DNA of 43,078 nucleotides from Marinifilum sp. (GTDB lineage Bacteria; UBA9089; CG2-30-40-21). Under the pieces are notes generated by a model that saw only the letters and a list, made by a program, of their open reading frames with translations, ran no database searches and was not told the DNA's origin. This document shows, in pieces, positions 21,580-33,585 of the stretch. The position numbers were made by a program, and so were the translations under genes. The stretch covers positions 1-43,078 of the forward strand of contig DYDG01000010.1 of assembly GCA_020717845.1 (NCBI GenBank), read 5' to 3'. Numbering within the stretch: position 1 is the first letter of the stretch; every line of letters begins with the position of its first letter.

Positions 21580-23409
21580 CTATCTTTGTTTCTTTCTCAG
21601 TCCTCTGGCAAGTCCAATTAATCCGCTGCCCAGAAGCAATATAGTTGTTGGTTCTGGAACAGCAGCTGGTCCCCCTACAGGAGGTGAGCCAGGAGCAGGT
21701 GCACCTATTCCACCACCACCGCCACCGCCTGGCAAGGGTGGATCACCGATAAAATAACCTGGTCTTGGATCAGATGTTGCATACGGGCCATCTGTCCCAG
21801 GATAAGGGCTGCGGAATGAAAAACCTGCCAGATCATTGTCTGGAGTGATGTTATGGGTTGCATAATCTGTTGAGTACCAGCGAAGTATCTCTGGCGGATC
21901 CTGCCAGAGGTTACCATTGCTGCCCCACATACCTCCGGTATTCTGCCAATTCCAAATTGATGGATCAGGAGATACCATTTGATATGACCATCCTGCAGGT
22001 GAATTGATATCAAATACCGTTCCCGGCCAGATAGGCACCTCATAGTCAACAATATTCTGAGCAGAAAGGTCAGAGTTATTCACTGTGAAGTTATAGGTGA
22101 ACCAGTTATCAGCTCCAGTAGTGATCATGGTATCAATCCATGAGATATGTCCCCCATTACTAACCACTGCACCAGCTATCTGAGCAGGGGTTGCCGTTGC
22201 TGGAAGTGAATTTCCTGCTGGATCAACCAATGGCGGTGAATCTGGTGGAGGGGTTGTCTCTCCAGATGAATCTTCTGGCAATGGCGGATCACCTATAAAC
22301 GGAAAGTCACTCGGATCAGAGGTTTGATATGGTCCCCCTGCCCCGGCATAAGGACTGTCAAACCTGAAGCCAGCAAGCGATGTCCCTGGATTAACCATGT
22401 CAGGATAGTACCAGTTACTGCCTTCTGCCTGCCAGTGCAGGATTAATGGTGGATTCTGCCAGTTTGCCCCCCATGTGCCAAACTGTTGGTTCACATTTTC
22501 CCAATTCCAGATAATACCAGGATCACCTGGTTTGCCAATGGTATATGTCCAGCCAAGCGGGGATTGGATATTGAATACCGTTCCAGGGAAGATAGGCACC
22601 TCATAATCAATGATAGGAGCGGTTGATGTTGCCGAATTATTAACCTCAAAGTCATAGGTATACCAGCCACTTAAGGAATCCTGGTTGACAATGGTATCTA
22701 TCCATGATGTATGCTGCCAGGGTTGAAAGGCAGCCGTGGCTGTGCCGTAAAACTCTGAAGATGTCTCCCAGTATTCATAAGTACTGGTTCCTTCTGGTTC
22801 ACCTTCTGGTTCACCTTCTGGTTTATCCAACAGTTCATTTATATAATAATCATACTCATATCCACTTCCTATTTGCCAGCTTCCACCAACTGTTTCATAT
22901 GGTGTAGCAATTGGTGACAGTGGCGTAGTAAACCCAAAACCATTCAAGATATTACCAGCAGGTATGGGAGAGTCATGCTCACCTCCATACACTGTACTTT
23001 CTTCATACCAATGCAATGTTGCTGGGAAAGACTGCCATCGCCAGCTTGGTGTAATGGGCACCAATCTATCCTCAATCATATTTATAGGAGTTGCATTACC
23101 CCATACCTGTGAAAAATGCTCCAACCAACTCCAAGTATAATTCCACCCTTGTGGCGAGGTAATATTGTGTGTTGTGGTTTGCCATGGCCACACTGGCAGC
23201 ATAAAATCACTTATCTCATCCGTGCTATTCAAGGCATTGAGGACAGTAAAATTATAGGTATATTCTCCGTTAGCAGTAGGGCTAACATCAGTTAGCACCG
23301 TAGAGGTATGAGAACCATCCACCGACCACCCCCAATAATCTGCTCCTGCCTTTCCCTCAAACAGAAAAAAGCATGAAATCACCAATAGAAATATAAAATA
23401 CCGTTTCAT
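21580..23409 (-). CDS. PEP-CTERM sorted exported protein with three internal repeats (start revised to ATG at 23409)
   Basis: C-term VPEPTTILLLGSGLIGLARGLRKKQR; MKRYFIFLLVISCFFLFEGKAGA signal; GGAGG upstream of 23409; repeats around DYEVPI(F/W)PGTVF(N/D)I(Q/N)SP. Confidence 0.9.
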   Translation of the reverse strand: MKRYFIFLLVISCFFLFEGKAGADYWGWSVDGSHTSTVLTDVSPTANGEYTYNFTVLNALNSTDEISDFMLPVWPWQTTTHNITSPQGWNYTWSWLEHFSQVWGNATPINMIEDRLVPITPSWRWQSFPATLHWYEESTVYGGEHDSPIPAGNILNGFGFTTPLSPIATPYETVGGSWQIGSGYEYDYYINELLDKPEGEPEGEPEGTSTYEYWETSSEFYGTATAAFQPWQHTSWIDTIVNQDSLSGWYTYDFEVNNSATSTAPIIDYEVPIFPGTVFNIQSPLGWTYTIGKPGDPGIIWNWENVNQQFGTWGANWQNPPLILHWQAEGSNWYYPDMVNPGTSLAGFRFDSPYAGAGGPYQTSDPSDFPFIGDPPLPEDSSGETTPPPDSPPLVDPAGNSLPATATPAQIAGAVVSNGGHISWIDTMITTGADNWFTYNFTVNNSDLSAQNIVDYEVPIWPGTVFDINSPAGWSYQMVSPDPSIWNWQNTGGMWGSNGNLWQDPPEILRWYSTDYATHNITPDNDLAGFSFRSPYPGTDGPYATSDPRPGYFIGDPPLPGGGGGGGIGAPAPGSPPVGGPAAVPEPTTILLLGSGLIGLARGLRKKQR

Positions 23410-23513
23410 AATAAACACCTCCAACTAAGATTAGATGTATGCCATCAACTTTATATGTTAATAAATTCCTGATTCAATCAAGAATTTGATATTTTTGTCT
23501 GCCAAATATTTAC

Positions 23514-25436: not shown

Positions 25437-26470
25437 CTTTGCTCCTTCTTAACCCTTTTAATATCTGACTCTACCATCATTTTTGCCAGCTCTTCAAACT
25501 TAGTCTCTGGCTGCCAGCCAAGTTTTTCTTTAGCCTTAAGGGGATTGCCCAGTAATATATCTACCTCAGCCGGCCGATAAAATTCTGGTGATACCTCTAT
25601 CAATATCTTACCTGTTTTTTCATCAATCCCTTTTGTTTCAACGCCCTGTCCTTGCCATTGTATCTTGAACCCTGCACAATCAAAGGCATATTCTACAAAT
25701 TCCCGGACAGTATGAGTTTCTCCAGTAGATAAGATGTAATCATCTGCCTTATCTTGTTGAAGCATACGCCACATCCCTTCCACATACTCCTTGGCATACC
25801 CCCAATCTCTTTTGGCATCCAGATTGCCGAGGACAATCTTTTCCTGCAACCCAAGGATGATCCTGGCGATGCCATAGGTTATTTTCCTGGTAATAAATTC
25901 TAAGCCTCGTAGCGGAGATTCATGATTGAACAATATCCCGGAACAGGCGAACATATTATAAGATTCCCTATAATTTACTACAGCCCAATGAGCAAACAAC
26001 TTTGAAACCCCATATGGGCTTCTTGGATAAAACGGTGTTCTTTCTGTCTGAGGCATCTCCCGGACATCACCAAACATCTCGCTTGTAGATGCCTGATAGA
26101 ATCTTGCCTCTGGTTTCAGTGTCCTGATTATCTCAAGCAATCGCAAGACACCAATGGCATTCACCTCTGAGGTCAGGATTGGCTGTTCAAAAGAGGTATG
26201 GACAAAGCTCTGAGCCGCCAGGTTATATATCTCATCTGGCTGGATTTTTTCTATTATTCTATAGACATTTTCAAACTCCAGCAGATCCATATAAACGATC
26301 TTAATCTTGTCTTCTATCCCCAGATCCTTTAATCTCCAATTGCTTGAATCACCGCTTCTTCTGTCAGCCCCAAAAACCGTATATCCTTTTTCCAATAGAA
26401 GCTGTCCAAGATATGCCCCATCTTGTCCACGAATACCTGTAATTAATGCTGTTTTACCTTGCTCACTCAT
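25433..26470 (-). CDS. gmd: GDP-mannose 4,6-dehydratase
   Basis: [66 protein letters not shown]. Confidence 0.95.
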
Positions 26471-27098
26471 TATTGTCTCCTTTGCACTTTACTTTAAGAT
26501 GTCTTCTGATAAAGACATACAATCCAACAACAAGAAGAATGCCTATGAATAGATCACACTTATGGAATATTGGAGAAACAACAGAATGGTATTTTTCGCC
26601 AAATTTCATCCCCAAATAGGTAAGTCCATAATTCCAGGGAATAGAGCCAATGGTTGTATAAAGACAAAACTTAAAGAAGTTCATCTTTGATATGCCTGCT
26701 GGCAGGGAGATAAACGTTCTGATAACCGGCATATTTCTGGTAATAAATATTGCCCATTCACCATATTTACTAAACCATCTATCGGCTACATCTATATCGT
26801 GATGGGTGATTAAGATATATTTGCCGTATTTCATAATAAATGGTCTGCCGCCAACCGCACCAACCCAGTAAGCAATTACTGATCCAACCAGATTACCCAC
26901 TGTCCCGGCAAATACCACCCAGAACATTGAGAATTTCCCCTCAGCTATCAAACAGCCTGCAAATGGCATGATAATCTCAGAGGGCAGAGGAATGCAGGCA
27001 CTTTCTATTGCCATGGCTATTCCTACACCAAAATAGCCTGTGGCATCAATGATATTTTTTACAATAACAGCCAAGAATTCAAGTATGTCAGTAATCAT
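26463..27098 (-). CDS. DedA family membrane protein
   Basis: ESACIPLPSEIIMPFAGCL, GNLVGSVIAYWVGAVGGRP, RNMPVIRTFISLPAGISKM. Confidence 0.92.
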   Translation of the reverse strand: MITDILEFLAVIVKNIIDATGYFGVGIAMAIESACIPLPSEIIMPFAGCLIAEGKFSMFWVVFAGTVGNLVGSVIAYWVGAVGGRPFIMKYGKYILITHHDIDVADRWFSKYGEWAIFITRNMPVIRTFISLPAGISKMNFFKFCLYTTIGSIPWNYGLTYLGMKFGEKYHSVVSPIFHKCDLFIGILLVVGLYVFIRRHLKVKCKGDNNE

Positions 27099-27171: not shown

Positions 27172-30123
27172 TCAGTCTCTCTTTTGCATTTCCTTCTGTT
27201 CCTTAAACAGTATCAAATCCCCTACCTCTACCTTGCCTGTATGCGCCCTGCCTGCGGGCAGTTCGAGCACATATTTGGCTAATCGCTGAGAGGTGTATGC
27301 CTTCCATGTATTGAGCTTGGTTGGATTAAAGGGGGCAACATTTTCAGCAATATCTACAACCTTAAAGCTCGAATCAAGCCAGATTATATCAATGGATACT
27401 GGGACAAAAAGCATATGAATCGAGACCCTTGTCCCTGTTGGATGTGGATATTCCATCAGAAGAGGGTCAGGTGATTTGGCAAACATCAGCCCTTTTGCCC
27501 TCTTTAAGAAACTGCGGGCAACACTTATCCTGGCAGATATTTGAATATTCTTGGTTACATTATGTCCTGTGACTACATCAAGATATTCTACAGCCATTAC
27601 TGATTCCTTGATCATTGCGACATAGCTTTCTCCACGACTCAGCAGCTCATAAATCCCAACCTTTGTTTCATCTGCCAGCAGTCTTCTTGACCCAAAGTAA
27701 CGAAACTTAATAGGTGCTCCCATGCTTTTTATTATCTTATAGGTATTTTCTCCGGCAAGGATTTGTCCGCCATTGGCTATTCGTCCAATCTTGGTAGCCA
27801 GATGGACCTCAATACTTGTAAGTGATGTTTGAGGTTGAGGATTTCCTGAAGCCATTCCCATCCGTATATAAAACTTTCGGCTTGGCTGCCTGAGATTATA
27901 CTCATCTATTTCCTCTTGCACCTTGGCAGCAGTATTAATCGCCTGAGCAGGTTCTTCAAACAGGGCAACGAATGTGGCACCAGTAAATTTAAGTATCTTC
28001 CCCTGACAATTAGTTACATTTGGCTTAATAGTATTATTATAAACCTGTAATCCGGTTAATCCCCTTGTTTCGCCAAGTTGTCTAATTAATTCCAGGGATC
28101 TTTTTATGCTCATAAAGAGTATGGTTGTCTTGCATTCAGGCAATGGTGCAGGGACAGTTTCAGGGGTGGGAGGAAAAGGTGTTTCAGATCTTGGTATAAT
28201 TTCGATCCCTTCCTTTTTTGTCGGCACAACCTTAGGAAGGATACCTATTTGTATTTGAGGGAAGGAAATCGCAATATTTTCTTTTTCCCTTCGTTCTATT
28301 TCAACGATAGCTTCAAAGGCAGCATTGTATACAGATGGAGACTCATCTGCAAGCAATCTTTCAAGATACGGGATAACCTCCCGGTCACATAGCTTGCCCA
28401 ATGCTCTGGCAGATTTTTCCCGACGTATCCAATCCTCATCTCCGAGCCTCTGGATAAAGATATCAATTGCTTTATTTTTGCCTGTTTCGTCCAGATAATC
28501 CTTTGCCATCTTGTCTGACATGGATGCCTGTTTGCGAGCTGCACGGCCAGCTATTCTGGCAAGCCCATAAAGTGCCTCTCTTTGATTATGCCAGTATCGG
28601 TCGTTTAATCGATCTTTTAATAATCCTATTACCCTGTTCTCAATTGTCTCCTCTACATCACCGCTGGACACACACTCAGCAGCTAAGAATAACGGATTAC
28701 GATACTTATAAGGCATATTCAGTATTGCCTTAACTAAATTAGAGGTATTGTTGGTATCCATTAATCCTGCCAGATAAACAAGCACATCCTCCCAGCGGGG
28801 ATGACTGCAAATAGTAGACAAATCAATATTCTGTAGAAATAATTCTTTCAACTTCTCTGCAGCAAAATATTCTCTGAATGACTGGTAGAAGAATTTCACC
28901 TCATCCTTTTGAATCCTGATAATACCAAGCTGGGTGCAGAGATGAAGCAGCTCTTCTGGCGAATTGCCATTATGTCTACTTTGATTGGCAATATTCTTAA
29001 ATAGGGTAACAACCTCCTGCTTATCCAGAACAGTAGCATTGTGCATCTGAAGTGTAAACCCCATCATAGCCAGTCCCTGTGCAATTATCTGTTTGTCTGC
29101 TTCAACAAGTTTCCCCATTTTTTCATAGAGGTCATAGAGGCAGTTAATGTATGCAGCATATACATCGGTCTTATTTTTGGGTATCTTTTTATAACGAATA
29201 AAGGTGGCCATCATTAGCAGGAGAAGGAGCGGGCTTTCAGCAATCTCTTTCAGGCTTGGGTCATCCATAATAGCATTAAAGACCACATCCCTTTTTTCCG
29301 TATCCTTGATATAATGACCAAGATATTCTCGGACATCATCTTCTGTTAATTCCAATAATTCTATAACCTTGTAATTTGCCGGGAAGCTGGTATAACAAAC
29401 CCCTTTACGGCAGCTAAGGATGTAATTATTTTGGGGGAATTGACTGATAAATTTCTGAATAGATTCTACTGGATTAAACCCTTCATAAGGGCAGAGAAGA
29501 TCAAGCCCATCAATCAAAACTAAAAACAGATTTTTTTCAAACAATATCCTTAATTGATCATGATTTAAGGTAAGCTTTCTATTATTTAATTCACTAAGAA
29601 GATAGTCTGAAAAATTTCCAGAACGAAAACCGCCCATATCCAGAAAAATGGGTATTAATCCTGCAAGGTTATGGCTTACGGTTGTCTCTGGGGAGTTTGT
29701 CATCTCTTGTAAACATTTTGTGGCATACAAACTTGTCAAGTATCTTAAGGATGTAGTCTTGCCTGAGCCTGATTCACCTATTAAAATAAGCGGGAGACTC
29801 GTCATGTCTTTCGTTTCTAATGAGTGAGAGAATAAGTCAGGCTCTGATTGCAACCCTTCTATCAATTCCTGAATAGTCTGCCTCTTCTTTGTCCAGGCAA
29901 GCCCTTCAGGTAGGACAGCACCACTATAAGCAAGCTCTTTTGTCTCTTCTAAGATTATATGACGAAGACAGGGAATAACAGGTAAATCTTCAGCACTTTC
30001 TGTGATATGAAGAGGCACATAAAGAGCTCTCCATTTGCCTATTTCACTATCAGCTAATAGATTATTCAGATATGACTTGAGATCCAATTTCTCCCTCCTT
30101 TGAGGCGTAAGTTGCAGTGGCAA
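27172..30123 (-). CDS. NACHT/STAND NTPase - HEAT-like - degenerate class III nucleotide cyclase - DUF192 fusion
   Basis: Walker A LILIGESGSGKTTSLRYL, Walker B LFLVLIDGLDLL; FFYQSFREYFAAEKL; HEAT RREKSARALGKLCDREVIPYLERLLADES; cyclase-like TILFMSIKRS...GKILKFTGATFVALFEEPAQAI...IRMGMASG...GGQILAGENTY; DUF192-like RAKGLMFA...HMLFVPVSIDIIWLDSSFKVVDI...YVLELPAGRAHTGKVEVGD. Confidence 0.85.
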   Translation of the reverse strand: MPLQLTPQRREKLDLKSYLNNLLADSEIGKWRALYVPLHITESAEDLPVIPCLRHIILEETKELAYSGAVLPEGLAWTKKRQTIQELIEGLQSEPDLFSHSLETKDMTSLPLILIGESGSGKTTSLRYLTSLYATKCLQEMTNSPETTVSHNLAGLIPIFLDMGGFRSGNFSDYLLSELNNRKLTLNHDQLRILFEKNLFLVLIDGLDLLCPYEGFNPVESIQKFISQFPQNNYILSCRKGVCYTSFPANYKVIELLELTEDDVREYLGHYIKDTEKRDVVFNAIMDDPSLKEIAESPLLLLLMMATFIRYKKIPKNKTDVYAAYINCLYDLYEKMGKLVEADKQIIAQGLAMMGFTLQMHNATVLDKQEVVTLFKNIANQSRHNGNSPEELLHLCTQLGIIRIQKDEVKFFYQSFREYFAAEKLKELFLQNIDLSTICSHPRWEDVLVYLAGLMDTNNTSNLVKAILNMPYKYRNPLFLAAECVSSGDVEETIENRVIGLLKDRLNDRYWHNQREALYGLARIAGRAARKQASMSDKMAKDYLDETGKNKAIDIFIQRLGDEDWIRREKSARALGKLCDREVIPYLERLLADESPSVYNAAFEAIVEIERREKENIAISFPQIQIGILPKVVPTKKEGIEIIPRSETPFPPTPETVPAPLPECKTTILFMSIKRSLELIRQLGETRGLTGLQVYNNTIKPNVTNCQGKILKFTGATFVALFEEPAQAINTAAKVQEEIDEYNLRQPSRKFYIRMGMASGNPQPQTSLTSIEVHLATKIGRIANGGQILAGENTYKIIKSMGAPIKFRYFGSRRLLADETKVGIYELLSRGESYVAMIKESVMAVEYLDVVTGHNVTKNIQISARISVARSFLKRAKGLMFAKSPDPLLMEYPHPTGTRVSIHMLFVPVSIDIIWLDSSFKVVDIAENVAPFNPTKLNTWKAYTSQRLAKYVLELPAGRAHTGKVEVGDLILFKEQKEMQKRD

Positions 30124-30156
30124 TGATATATTAATGAGTAGTAAAGCTCATCTGCT

Positions 30157-30255
30157 TTATACCTGCCCTAATCCTCTTCGATGGCTTTCGTACCAATCAA
30201 AAATCTCTTTCAGATCATCTTCAGCCTCTATTGTAACAACGAGTTCATGCTTCAT
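30157..30255 (-). pseudogene. Truncated ParE/RelE-type toxin remnant (32 aa)
   Basis: Not in track: MKHELVVTIEAEDDLKEIFDWYESHRRGLGQV*; start overlaps the antitoxin 3' end; ParE-like N-terminus then stop. Confidence 0.65.
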
Positions 30256-30472
30256 AACGTTTCACAATTCTTTGGCAGACTTCATTCCATGGAGATACGG
30301 CATTAGGATTACAATGGTATGCCTCTATGCGTTGATCGAGTATCTGTTTCTCTTTGTCTGTCAATTCGATTGCATCTACCTTAGCAGCAATTGAATCCCA
30401 GATATCTTCAACAAGCACAATTCTCTCTGGAATTGAAAGATTTAGTGTATCAGTTACCATTGTTTTTTGCAT
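30245..30472 (-). CDS. Addiction-module component (TIGR02574-like antitoxin), start revised to MQKTMVTD
   Basis: LNLSIPERIVLVEDIWDSIAAKVDAIELTDKEKQILDQRIEAYHCNPNAVSPWNEV; RBS-like GAAGGGGA before ATG. Confidence 0.8.
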   Translation of the reverse strand: MQKTMVTDTLNLSIPERIVLVEDIWDSIAAKVDAIELTDKEKQILDQRIEAYHCNPNAVSPWNEVCQRIVKRYEA

Positions 30473-30583
30473 AATTCCCCTTCTTCCGAATATTTTGTCT
30501 TCCAACATATCTGACAGCAGTTAGTTCATTCCCTGTCTTGCCCACTGACTGCTTAATGCCATGCATTCGCTCCTCTTTGCCGG

Positions 30584-30865
30584 TTAACACAACCCATTGT
30601 TGAACAAATTATTTGGCAGATTTGTCGATTCCGCTGGAAGCATTTCAGCAAGCAAGGTTTCTGGAGCAATGTCCTGTTCGTTTGGCCATGTTACTGCACC
30701 GAATAAAATGCCAACCTGATTAAAGTAATGTATATCTTGAAGTTCGTGCAAGACACCTCGACCAAGATATGGTTTAAGGTCAAAGATACCCTTACGCCCA
30801 TTCTCAAGCTCTACATAAATACGATAATCTGACAGTGGTTTAACAAATTTAGCATCCCAATACAT
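30584..30865 (-). CDS. DUF2442 protein (start revised to MYWDAKFV)
   Basis: MYWDAKFVKPLSDYRIYVELENGRKGIFDLKPYL; GAGG RBS just upstream. Confidence 0.8.
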   Translation of the reverse strand: MYWDAKFVKPLSDYRIYVELENGRKGIFDLKPYLGRGVLHELQDIHYFNQVGILFGAVTWPNEQDIAPETLLAEMLPAESTNLPNNLFNNGLC

Positions 30866-30872
30866 GACAACC

Positions 30873-31139
30873 TCACAAAGGGACAATTTTATAGGGTTGT
30901 TCACCACTGATAATCAATTCCCAATCTGCCAGTAGTTCATCATAGTGCAGTTCTATCCATGCCTGCACTAACCGCAATTGCTTGCGAGGCAATTTGCCTG
31001 CCAATATCTCACCATCTTCAATACTGATAGAAGCCTCAAACTCAGCGTATTTGGCATGAATATGCGGCAGATTATGCTGCCGGTTATCGATAAGATACAA
31101 TCGAATAATAATTCCATAAAACATGGAAATGATAGGCAT
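30873..31139 (-). CDS. DUF4160 protein
   Basis: MPIISMFYGIIIRLYLIDNRQHNLPHIHAKYAEFEASISIEDGEIL. Confidence 0.85.
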   Translation of the reverse strand: MPIISMFYGIIIRLYLIDNRQHNLPHIHAKYAEFEASISIEDGEILAGKLPRKQLRLVQAWIELHYDELLADWELIISGEQPYKIVPL

Positions 31140-31157: not shown

Positions 31158-31850
31158 TTATCTAACTGACCTGTCAATCAATTCTTCTGCCTCTCTACTC
31201 AAGGCATTCAGCCGTTCTTTCAATATATCACATTCCTGCTGAACAGATGTATCCTCCCCTACTTTATACGGCTGGCCAAAAGCAATCAACCCCTGGCTAA
31301 ATGGTTTTGGCAATACATACTTATCCCACGCTGCCTCAAATATCCATTTATGCCTTGATGCTGAAACAAGTGGAACGATATATGCCCCTGTTTTCCTTGC
31401 CAGGGTTATTATCCCTTCCTTTGGTTCGTAGATTGGACCTGTTGGACCATCAATAGCCAGTCCACAATCATGTCCATCCCTCATCCCACGGATCAGCCCT
31501 ATCAACCCGCGTGTTCCGCCTTTAGCCGAAGAGCCTCTTACAATTTTGTAGCCAAACCTTTGCAATATCCTTGCCTGATACTCTCCATCCTTGCTCAGGC
31601 TGCTCATTAATATAATATTCCTCTGACTCATAAATGGCACAAGCAGAAATTGCTGTCCATGCCAGAAGGCGTAAATAACATGAGGAGAATGCAAAATGTC
31701 AGACTCGAAATCCGCATTCCGCATTCCGCATTCCGCATTCTCTTTCCCAACAACCCTCAGCCTGATGGTACAGAATAAGAGGCGGATAAGGATCTCAGCC
31801 AGCAAAGGCAGGATTATAGTTAATATCCTTTCTTTAATCTGTGCAATCAT
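31158..31850 (-). CDS. DUF374-type lysophospholipid acyltransferase family protein (start revised to MIAQIKER)
   Basis: VIYAFWHGQQFLLVPFM; SSLSKDGEYQARILQRFGYKIVRGSSAKGGTRGL; AIDGPTGP. Confidence 0.88.
   Translation of the reverse strand: MIAQIKERILTIILPLLAEILIRLLFCTIRLRVVGKENAECGMRNADFESDILHSPHVIYAFWHGQQFLLVPFMSQRNIILMSSLSKDGEYQARILQRFGYKIVRGSSAKGGTRGLIGLIRGMRDGHDCGLAIDGPTGPIYEPKEGIITLARKTGAYIVPLVSASRHKWIFEAAWDKYVLPKPFSQGLIAFGQPYKVGEDTSVQQECDILKERLNALSREAEELIDRSVR
31711..31740. repeat. Heptanucleotide microsatellite GCATTCC x ~4 inside a CDS
   Basis: TCC GCATTCC GCATTCC GCATTCC GCATTC. Confidence 0.95.
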
Positions 31851-33585
31851 TATACTGTATCTCATAAAGCCTCTTATACAATCCATCAGAGGACAGCAGT
31901 TCGTCATGTGTCCCTATCTCTGCAATCCCCCCCTGACTGATGGTAATAATCCTGTCTGCACGAATAATGGTCGAAAGTCTGTGAGCAATAATGATAGTTG
32001 TCTGTTGACGCATAATCCTGAAAAGAGCAGACTGGATAAGGTTTTCTGATTCTGTATCAAGGGATGCTGTTGCCTCATCCAATATCAATATCCCTGGTTT
32101 CCTAAGCAATGCCCTAGCAATGGCTATTCTTTGCCGCTCTCCGCCTGAAAGCCTGACTCCATGCTCTCCGATAGGGGTATCATACCCTGTAGGAAGACGC
32201 ATGATAAAATCATGCGCATTAGCATTTAGGGCTGATTCAATTATTTCCTCCATGCTTGCATCCAGCATACCGTAGGCAATATTTTCAGCGATACTGCCGG
32301 AGAAGAGAAATGTATGCTGCGGGACTATACCTATCTGTCTTCTTAGGCTGCTCAAGGTTACATCCCGAATATCCATCTCATCTATCCTAATGACACCTGA
32401 TGCAGGGTCATAAAGCCGTGGGATAAGATTGACCAATGTGGTTTTTCCGCCGCCAGATGGGCCAACAAGAGCCAGAACCTCACCTGGGTCAATCGTCAGG
32501 TTTATTCCCTGAAGCACAGGTTTATCATCGTATACAAATGATACATCTACAAACTCTATCTTTCCTTTAAGGGTTTGAGTTCCTTGCATTTCCTCTGTTG
32601 GCATTTCAAAGGCATTTGGTGACTCTTTAACCGTAATCATGGTATCAAGCAGCCCAAATATTCGCTGACTTGCTGCTGCTGCCTGCTGAATAAGGATATT
32701 TGCCTGAGAAAAATCCTGGATTGGCCTGGATATGGTCAATAAGTATGCTACAAAAGACATCAATGCTCCAGGACTCAATCGTTCATGAGCAACCTCATAT
32801 CCACCATACCAGATAACTAAGAGCATACCAACTATCCCAATAATCCAGACAAGTGGACCAGAGAGAACCATCAGTTTTATTCCTTTAAGATACAGGCGAA
32901 AATAACCTTCATTCTCCTTAGAAAACCGTTTTGACTCTATCTCTTCAGCACAAAAGAGCTTAACGATAGATACGCCAGAGATGGTTTCCTGTAAAATATT
33001 AGTAACATCTGCCATCTTTTCCTGAATCTGATGGGTTACCTTTCGTATCCTTTTCCCTATTTGCACAATGACTCCAGCAATAAGCGGAGCAACAATCGTA
33101 ACAAGGAGGGCAAGTTTCCAGTGGATGCAAAAAATAATACATATCCCGCCTATCAGAATAAACGGGGACTTGATCAATGTCACTGCCCCAGAGGTGATAA
33201 GGTTTTGCAGGATATTAACATCATTTATTGTTCTTGATATAAGCTCACCGCATCGGCTATCCTTATGAAATTTCATAGAAAGATGGGTAAGATGCTCAAA
33301 TATCTGATTTCGAATAACAAAAAGCACACGCTGTCCAATATAATTCATAATAAAGCTGTGGGTATATTGAGATACAGCCTGAATAATAGCAACTCCAAGG
33401 GCTATTATTAAAATAATATTTAATTGAAAAAGATCTTTTTTGTTTAAGGCATCCTCTATCAATCCCTTGATCAGCCATGGGAATGTCAGGGCACACCCAG
33501 AAACAATCAGGATACAGCAAAAGGCTGCAAATAAACGTAGTTTGTATCCAAGAACATATTTCAGTAATCGAGACATAGCTGCCAT
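31834..33585 (-). CDS. MsbA-like ABC transporter (fused permease-ATPase)
   Basis: Walker A LVGPSGGGKTTLV; signature RLSGGERQRIAIARALLRKPGILILDEATASLD; six-TM N-terminal region. Confidence 0.92.
   Translation of the reverse strand: MAAMSRLLKYVLGYKLRLFAAFCCILIVSGCALTFPWLIKGLIEDALNKKDLFQLNIILIIALGVAIIQAVSQYTHSFIMNYIGQRVLFVIRNQIFEHLTHLSMKFHKDSRCGELISRTINDVNILQNLITSGAVTLIKSPFILIGGICIIFCIHWKLALLVTIVAPLIAGVIVQIGKRIRKVTHQIQEKMADVTNILQETISGVSIVKLFCAEEIESKRFSKENEGYFRLYLKGIKLMVLSGPLVWIIGIVGMLLVIWYGGYEVAHERLSPGALMSFVAYLLTISRPIQDFSQANILIQQAAAASQRIFGLLDTMITVKESPNAFEMPTEEMQGTQTLKGKIEFVDVSFVYDDKPVLQGINLTIDPGEVLALVGPSGGGKTTLVNLIPRLYDPASGVIRIDEMDIRDVTLSSLRRQIGIVPQHTFLFSGSIAENIAYGMLDASMEEIIESALNANAHDFIMRLPTGYDTPIGEHGVRLSGGERQRIAIARALLRKPGILILDEATASLDTESENLIQSALFRIMRQQTTIIIAHRLSTIIRADRIITISQGGIAEIGTHDELLSSDGLYKRLYEIQYNDCTD

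Follow-up and report, generated by a model that had tools for sequence, protein, structure and literature searches.

The window, the whole 43,078-nucleotide stretch of DNA that was analysed, encodes on its minus strand a 971-residue protein in which a NACHT NTPase, HEAT repeats, a class III cyclase-like domain and a DUF192 domain follow one another in one chain. The cyclase-like domain has lost its catalytic metal aspartates, the DUF192 domain belongs to a cytoplasmic class, and the whole architecture is found in all eight genomes of the order that were examined. This fusion protein probably acts as a built-in regulator and not as a cyclase, nor is it an obvious phage-defence gene; pilus or envelope control is our leading guess for its role. 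No earlier description of a NACHT, DUF192 and dead cyclase combination was found in the literature searched, in agreement with an earlier note on this DNA that had called the architecture undescribed, and a literature search for STAND NTPases joined to class III adenylate cyclases found nothing. NACHT-HEAT proteins are already known and cyclase-NACHT proteins also occur in the phylum (L056, L014); it is the addition of DUF192 and a dead cyclase that was not found described.

Gene, domain layout and distribution

The earlier note had reported a 983-aa ORF at 27172-30123. The ORF exists and is carried by the minus strand, the plus strand of the same interval being full of stops, but the 983-aa form merely follows the mechanical ORF start, TTG 30123. 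The start was assigned to TTG 30087, which gives 971 aa, because a good ribosome-binding site precedes it and because the first residues, MDFKSYL..., are common to seven homologues, which begin at the same residue. The extra 12 residues come from the upstream DNA, part of which resembles the remains of a toxin-antitoxin pair. Just upstream, at 30134-31139 of the window, several small genes are clustered (DUF4160, DUF2442, Unstab_antitox and a truncated ParE-like toxin), a group that was not seen at the corresponding place in genome G001. The features of the gene are as follows.

27172..30087, minus strand: whole gene, 971 aa plus stop (homologues' start residue and AAGGAGG)
30094..30100, minus strand (30100-30094 as read on the gene strand): ribosome-binding site AAGGAGG, 6-nt spacing to TTG 30087 (sequence)
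29794..30087, minus strand: N-terminal region, aa 1-98, no recognised effector domain (Pfam, NCBIfam, PADLOC and homologue alignment)
29302..29790, minus strand: NACHT NTPase, aa 100-262 (Pfam; NACHT in 8/8 homologues)
28828..29301, minus strand: presumed helical or winged-helix part of the STAND module, aa 263-420, with the FFYQSFREYFAA motif (conservation)
28288..28497, minus strand: HEAT repeats, aa 531-600 (Pfam, also in homologues)
27622..28137, minus strand: class III cyclase-like domain, aa 651-822, metal Asp lost (NCBIfam, PDB, hhalign, Foldseek)
27211..27531, minus strand: DUF192 domain, aa 853-959, cytoplasmic IHxFFM class (Pfam, tree, motif)

Pfam finds NACHT (2.6e-7), HEAT_2 (4e-10) and DUF192 (2.5e-16) in the window protein, each above its curated cut-off, which bears out the HEAT-like repeats and the C-terminal DUF192-like domain that had been read from the sequence; NACHT (PF05729), HEAT and DUF192 families are likewise detected in 8/8 homologues. 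Membership of the NACHT / STAND NTPases follows from the profile together with both Walker motifs. Walker A (GESGSGKTT, 29778-29752, minus strand) is intact, as had been claimed of both motifs. Walker B (DGLD, 29511-29500, minus strand) is there but lacks the acidic residue that should follow it, reading DGLDLL instead of DGLDE. All eight homologues carry GES(G/A)GKTT and hhDGLD, with the last acid of DGLDE replaced by Leu, and in the alignment the 8/8 sequences differ in Walker A and the sensor-region motif SCRKG at one Ser/Ala position only. Judged from the motif, the conserved DGLDLL may make hydrolysis slow. We take aa 263-420 to be the helical or winged-helix part of the STAND module from the resemblance of the FFYQSFREYFAA motif. 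At the N-terminus the motif MDFKSYLxNxLxDEE..KW..LY is conserved in the homologues, and a search for an effector in aa 1-98 yielded nothing of note from Pfam, NCBIfam or PADLOC.

The eight proteins that share the architecture are 44-86% identical to the window protein: the other three members of the window's genus, whose named records include Candidatus Desantisbacteria, are 78-86% identical to it, and the four in another family 44-45%. The gene is single-copy in every one of these genomes and its tree follows the genera. Whole-protein dN/dS is about 0.17-0.23, purifying selection is also seen per domain in nearly all comparisons, and the HEAT repeats have the lowest values of the protein in most pairs. 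Since eight genomes carry the whole architecture under purifying selection, an assembly error or frameshift that joined two genes, for which no evidence was found and which the earlier note had named as something that would refute it, was rejected as having a negligible chance of being true; the same full-length fusion stands in eight separate assemblies of different species, and the single polypeptide proposed there is real. Among the matches listed from a search for DUF192 across 384 genomes, the NACHT-HEAT-cyclase-like-DUF192 order occurs only in these eight, and searches of 50,697 phage and 72,556 plasmid records turned up no full-length relative. As far as searched, the architecture is confined to one order.

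A cyclase-like domain without its metal aspartates

The cyclase-like stretch of the window protein is too diverged to pass the Pfam threshold, and PF00211 is found weakly in 3/8 homologues (best 0.0087). Other profile searches did recover the similarity to cyclases that had been predicted: NCBIfam LipJ matches the domain at 3.2e-6, Ma1120 in the PDB at 1.3e-5, and a profile-profile comparison by hhalign with intact cyclases, nearly all of them from genomes of the window's own order, gave a probability of 99.4 and E 1.7e-21. AlphaFold models had a pLDDT of 37 for the full length and 40 for the C-terminal half, too poor to read domain interfaces, and their use was confined to the cyclase core (about 60-80). 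With the weak model of the C-terminal half, all 50 PDB matches shown by Foldseek were class III cyclases.

The catalytic residues tell a different part of the story. Aligned with intact cyclases, all eight proteins have Ser or Asn in place of the first metal Asp (FTDI), and none of them has Asp at the second position (GD). The transition-state Asn-Arg pair survives in only two of the eight (L025 and L026, VNLAVRI), the window protein having His and Lys, and in the second family the alignment is also gapped close to the Asn, and the Lys of the substrate site has gone. The domain therefore resembles the class III cyclases Ma1120, Rv1900c/LipJ and CyaC in fold and overall sequence profile, as had been proposed, but differs from them in lacking the metal Asp, so that catalysis is not expected. 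An active nucleotide cyclase gated by the NACHT module would explain the recognisable fold and the Asn-Arg pair kept in L025 and L026; with both metal-binding Asp replaced in 8/8, and further active-site positions gone in the second family, it was rejected on its catalytic residues as very improbable. We regard the domain as a pseudocyclase which, because both metal-binding Asp are lost throughout, should not make a cyclic nucleotide. Its dN/dS is 0.17-0.40; a domain that stays constrained though its catalytic residues are lost is therefore presumably kept for something other than catalysis.

Two proteins of the same phylum, L056 in the window's genome and L014 in G017, also hold a cyclase-like and a NACHT/STAND domain in one chain, L014 with HEAT repeats as well. 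They differ in having the cyclase at the N-terminus, no DUF192, and a cyclase that is less degenerate by inspection, the first metal Asp being kept in both and the second in L056. The cyclase-like plus NACHT-like protein of L056 (G000:C54) and L062 (G001:C126) keeps GD and DGLDE and is preceded by another STAND-like ORF. Separately, three genus members (L054, L055, L057) have a small stand-alone degenerate cyclase-like protein next to a folC-like gene, and in L054 it also adjoins a PilC/T2SSF-like gene.

DUF192 class and gene neighbourhood

The DUF192 domain scores 60 bits against PF02643 (cut-off 27), and the family is matched in 8/8 homologues. A tree was built from 65 stand-alone domains, one of them unclassified, and the eight fused ones; its support values are rough because the alignment has 105 columns and the bootstrap had not settled. 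A supported branch (95/89) separates an FWM class from an IHxFFM class, and among stand-alone members an N-terminal hydrophobic stretch is present in 25/26 of the former and 0/38 of the latter. The fused domains form one clade (92/92) on the IHxFFM side, sister (96/80) to the stand-alone DUF192 from G008 and G013, two further members of the phylum, and carry the motif IHM/IHT, with neither the FWM of the exported class (FWMKNT) nor an export signal. The description of DUF192 as often exported thus fits the other class, by motif, tree position and hydrophobic-stretch counts, and not the one fused here. The fused domain resembles cytoplasmic PRK03760-like DUF192 (PF02643, COG1430) in sequence, IHxFFM signature and tree group, and differs in its setting: such proteins are normally small, stand-alone and often beside tadB/C, and here the domain forms the C-terminus of a 971-aa STAND protein.

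DUF192 was matched in 164/384 genomes searched, and beyond the eight fusions the matches listed, all but the weakest, are small proteins. In each genome of the order the one DUF192 detected is the fused copy. Two long DUF192 frames, in G045 (1120 aa) and G196 (846 aa), were rejected as fusions, being high-GC read-through upstream of an ordinary signal-bearing DUF192. Elsewhere, at L048:1412-2404 (minus strand), DUF192 is joined to a phospholipid/isoprenylcysteine methyltransferase-like membrane domain in a protein of 331 aa (PEMT 3e-5). The titles and abstracts of open papers yielded no functional study of DUF192.

The IHxFFM class has a distinctive neighbour. Of the IHxFFM loci, 19/38 have a TadB/C-type T2SSF gene no more than 5 kb away, against 0/26 loci of the exported FWM class (Fisher p 4e-6, with no correction for relatedness); 19/38 is a rough figure because the loci were chosen by score from one search and some of them (L010, L033, L046-L048) lay outside the Tad scan and were counted as negative. 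All 19 loci (L078, L081, L084, L086-L089, L091, L094, L096, L097, L100, L102, L106, L108, L110-L112 and L114) have the two genes on one strand, separated by a median of 216 bases and by less than 350 bases in 14/19, and Pfam identified T2SSF, T2SSE, secretin and RcpC/CpaB among representative neighbours. Stand-alone IHxFFM DUF192 is thus a candidate accessory of Tad/Flp pilus operons. The link holds at the level of the class only. Neither in the window nor in L025-L029 does the fused gene have a recognised Tad operon beside it, no Tad genes lie near the sister stand-alone genes of G008 and G013 as far as those loci reach, and the fused clade falls, with weak support, outside the main Tad-linked group of the tree. 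CpaB/RcpC was detected in only 4/8 genomes of the order, the fused gene in 8/8.

Around the fused gene itself, the immediate neighbours in the window are the following.

26463..27098, minus strand: downstream neighbour, VTT/DedA-family membrane protein (Pfam; kept in G001 and G002)
31158..31907, minus strand: upstream neighbour, DUF374-like (lysophospholipid acyltransferase-like; order kept in G001 and G002)

Further upstream of the DUF374-like gene is an MsbA-like ABC transporter, in an order that is also kept in G001 and G002; we take the family names of these two upstream neighbours from sequence and general knowledge. Three of the four genus members share an envelope-type order of Gfo/Idh, MsbA-like, DUF374, fused gene and DedA, directly followed by gmd and rfbA in G000 and G001, with these further off in G002. 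The neighbours differ in G003 and in the second family, where the window's gene order is not kept. In G006 (L029) the fused gene is convergent with a group of T4P-type pilin, pilB, pilT and pilC-like genes, assigned from sequence. Elsewhere in the window, at 21580-23424, there is a secreted repeat protein with a PEP-CTERM-like tail (PEPTTILLLGSGLIGLARGLRKKQR).

Proposed role and its alternatives

We propose, with a probability of roughly 40%, that the protein is a cytoplasmic ATP-gated STAND switch that acts as a regulatory scaffold, and that its likeliest partner is host envelope machinery, most specifically the Tad/type-IV-like pilus assembly apparatus. The NACHT module would bind ATP or ADP and switch between closed and oligomeric forms. 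An arm that reads or touches the partner would be made up of the C-terminal HEAT repeats, the pseudocyclase and the cytoplasmic-type DUF192, the inactive fold of the pseudocyclase being retained to dimerise or to bind a nucleotide or other ligand. Output would come by protein contact and not from an enzyme, because there is no recognisable N-terminal effector and the cyclase is dead. A Tad or pilus partner is likeliest because stand-alone DUF192 of the same class is often a same-strand neighbour of tadB/C. The invariant motifs, the purifying selection, the Asp loss, the DUF192 class with its Tad proximity, the envelope-like gene order and the pilus group of G006 all point towards this reading; the sister genes and the fused clade lying off the Tad group, the detection of CpaB in 4/8 and a context not kept in G003 or the second family point away from it.

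Bacterial NACHT proteins are described as effector, NACHT and sensor in series (PMC12169576; PMC10907252), and the earlier note had suggested a possible part in defence. The chief rival, though we think it unlikely, is a single-protein anti-phage NACHT receptor of the bNACHT kind, in which HEAT, pseudocyclase and DUF192 would do the sensing, perhaps as a decoy for, or guard of, the pilus-type machinery that phages use, and the short N-terminus would be a cryptic effector. It keeps that place because some antiphage bNACHTs, those of clade 14, are also without a discernible effector (PMC12169576). The window protein shares with bNACHT25, the clade 14 bNACHTs and EruA a central NACHT NTPase and a C-terminal repeat or sensor-like region, in a NACHT-HEAT architecture; aa 201-329 show a distant similarity to antiphage EruA (6.6e-9, far below the EruA cut-off), and further NACHT and cyclase-NACHT genes are present in these genomes and in the phylum. 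It differs from them in having no recognised N-terminal effector and in ending in a pseudocyclase and DUF192. Defence genes are usually patchy and mobile. This one occurs once in each genome of the order and its tree agrees with the genera, PADLOC reported nothing relevant for the protein or its neighbours, and neither the neighbourhoods nor the phage and plasmid records place it in a defence island or on a mobile element, so that the defence suggestion finds no support from context.

A regulator that is particular to this lineage and serves general envelope or stress physiology, without any pilus link and with a DUF192 that retains only an ancestral housekeeping binding role, would account for a gene present in all eight genomes under purifying selection, for the envelope-type neighbours in three genus members, for sister stand-alone genes away from Tad, and for the half of the order that has no detected CpaB. 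It names no specific partner, and the context that favours it is not kept in the second family; we consider it doubtful. The scaffold with a pilus or envelope partner remains the reading we prefer.

DUF192 is a widespread family, and the fusion places it in a signalling context; the split between an exported and a cytoplasmic, Tad-adjacent class makes its role testable. The gene is also an NLR-like protein fixed in an order without the signs of a mobile defence gene. It is conceivable, if rather improbable, that it is a non-immune NLR-like switch, in which a NACHT ATPase took over the genome's only detected DUF192 and, with a dead cyclase, monitors or gates a Tad/type-IV-like pilus or envelope machine. 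If so, DUF192 would gain a first role, and STAND signalling would extend from defence to the control of surface organelles.
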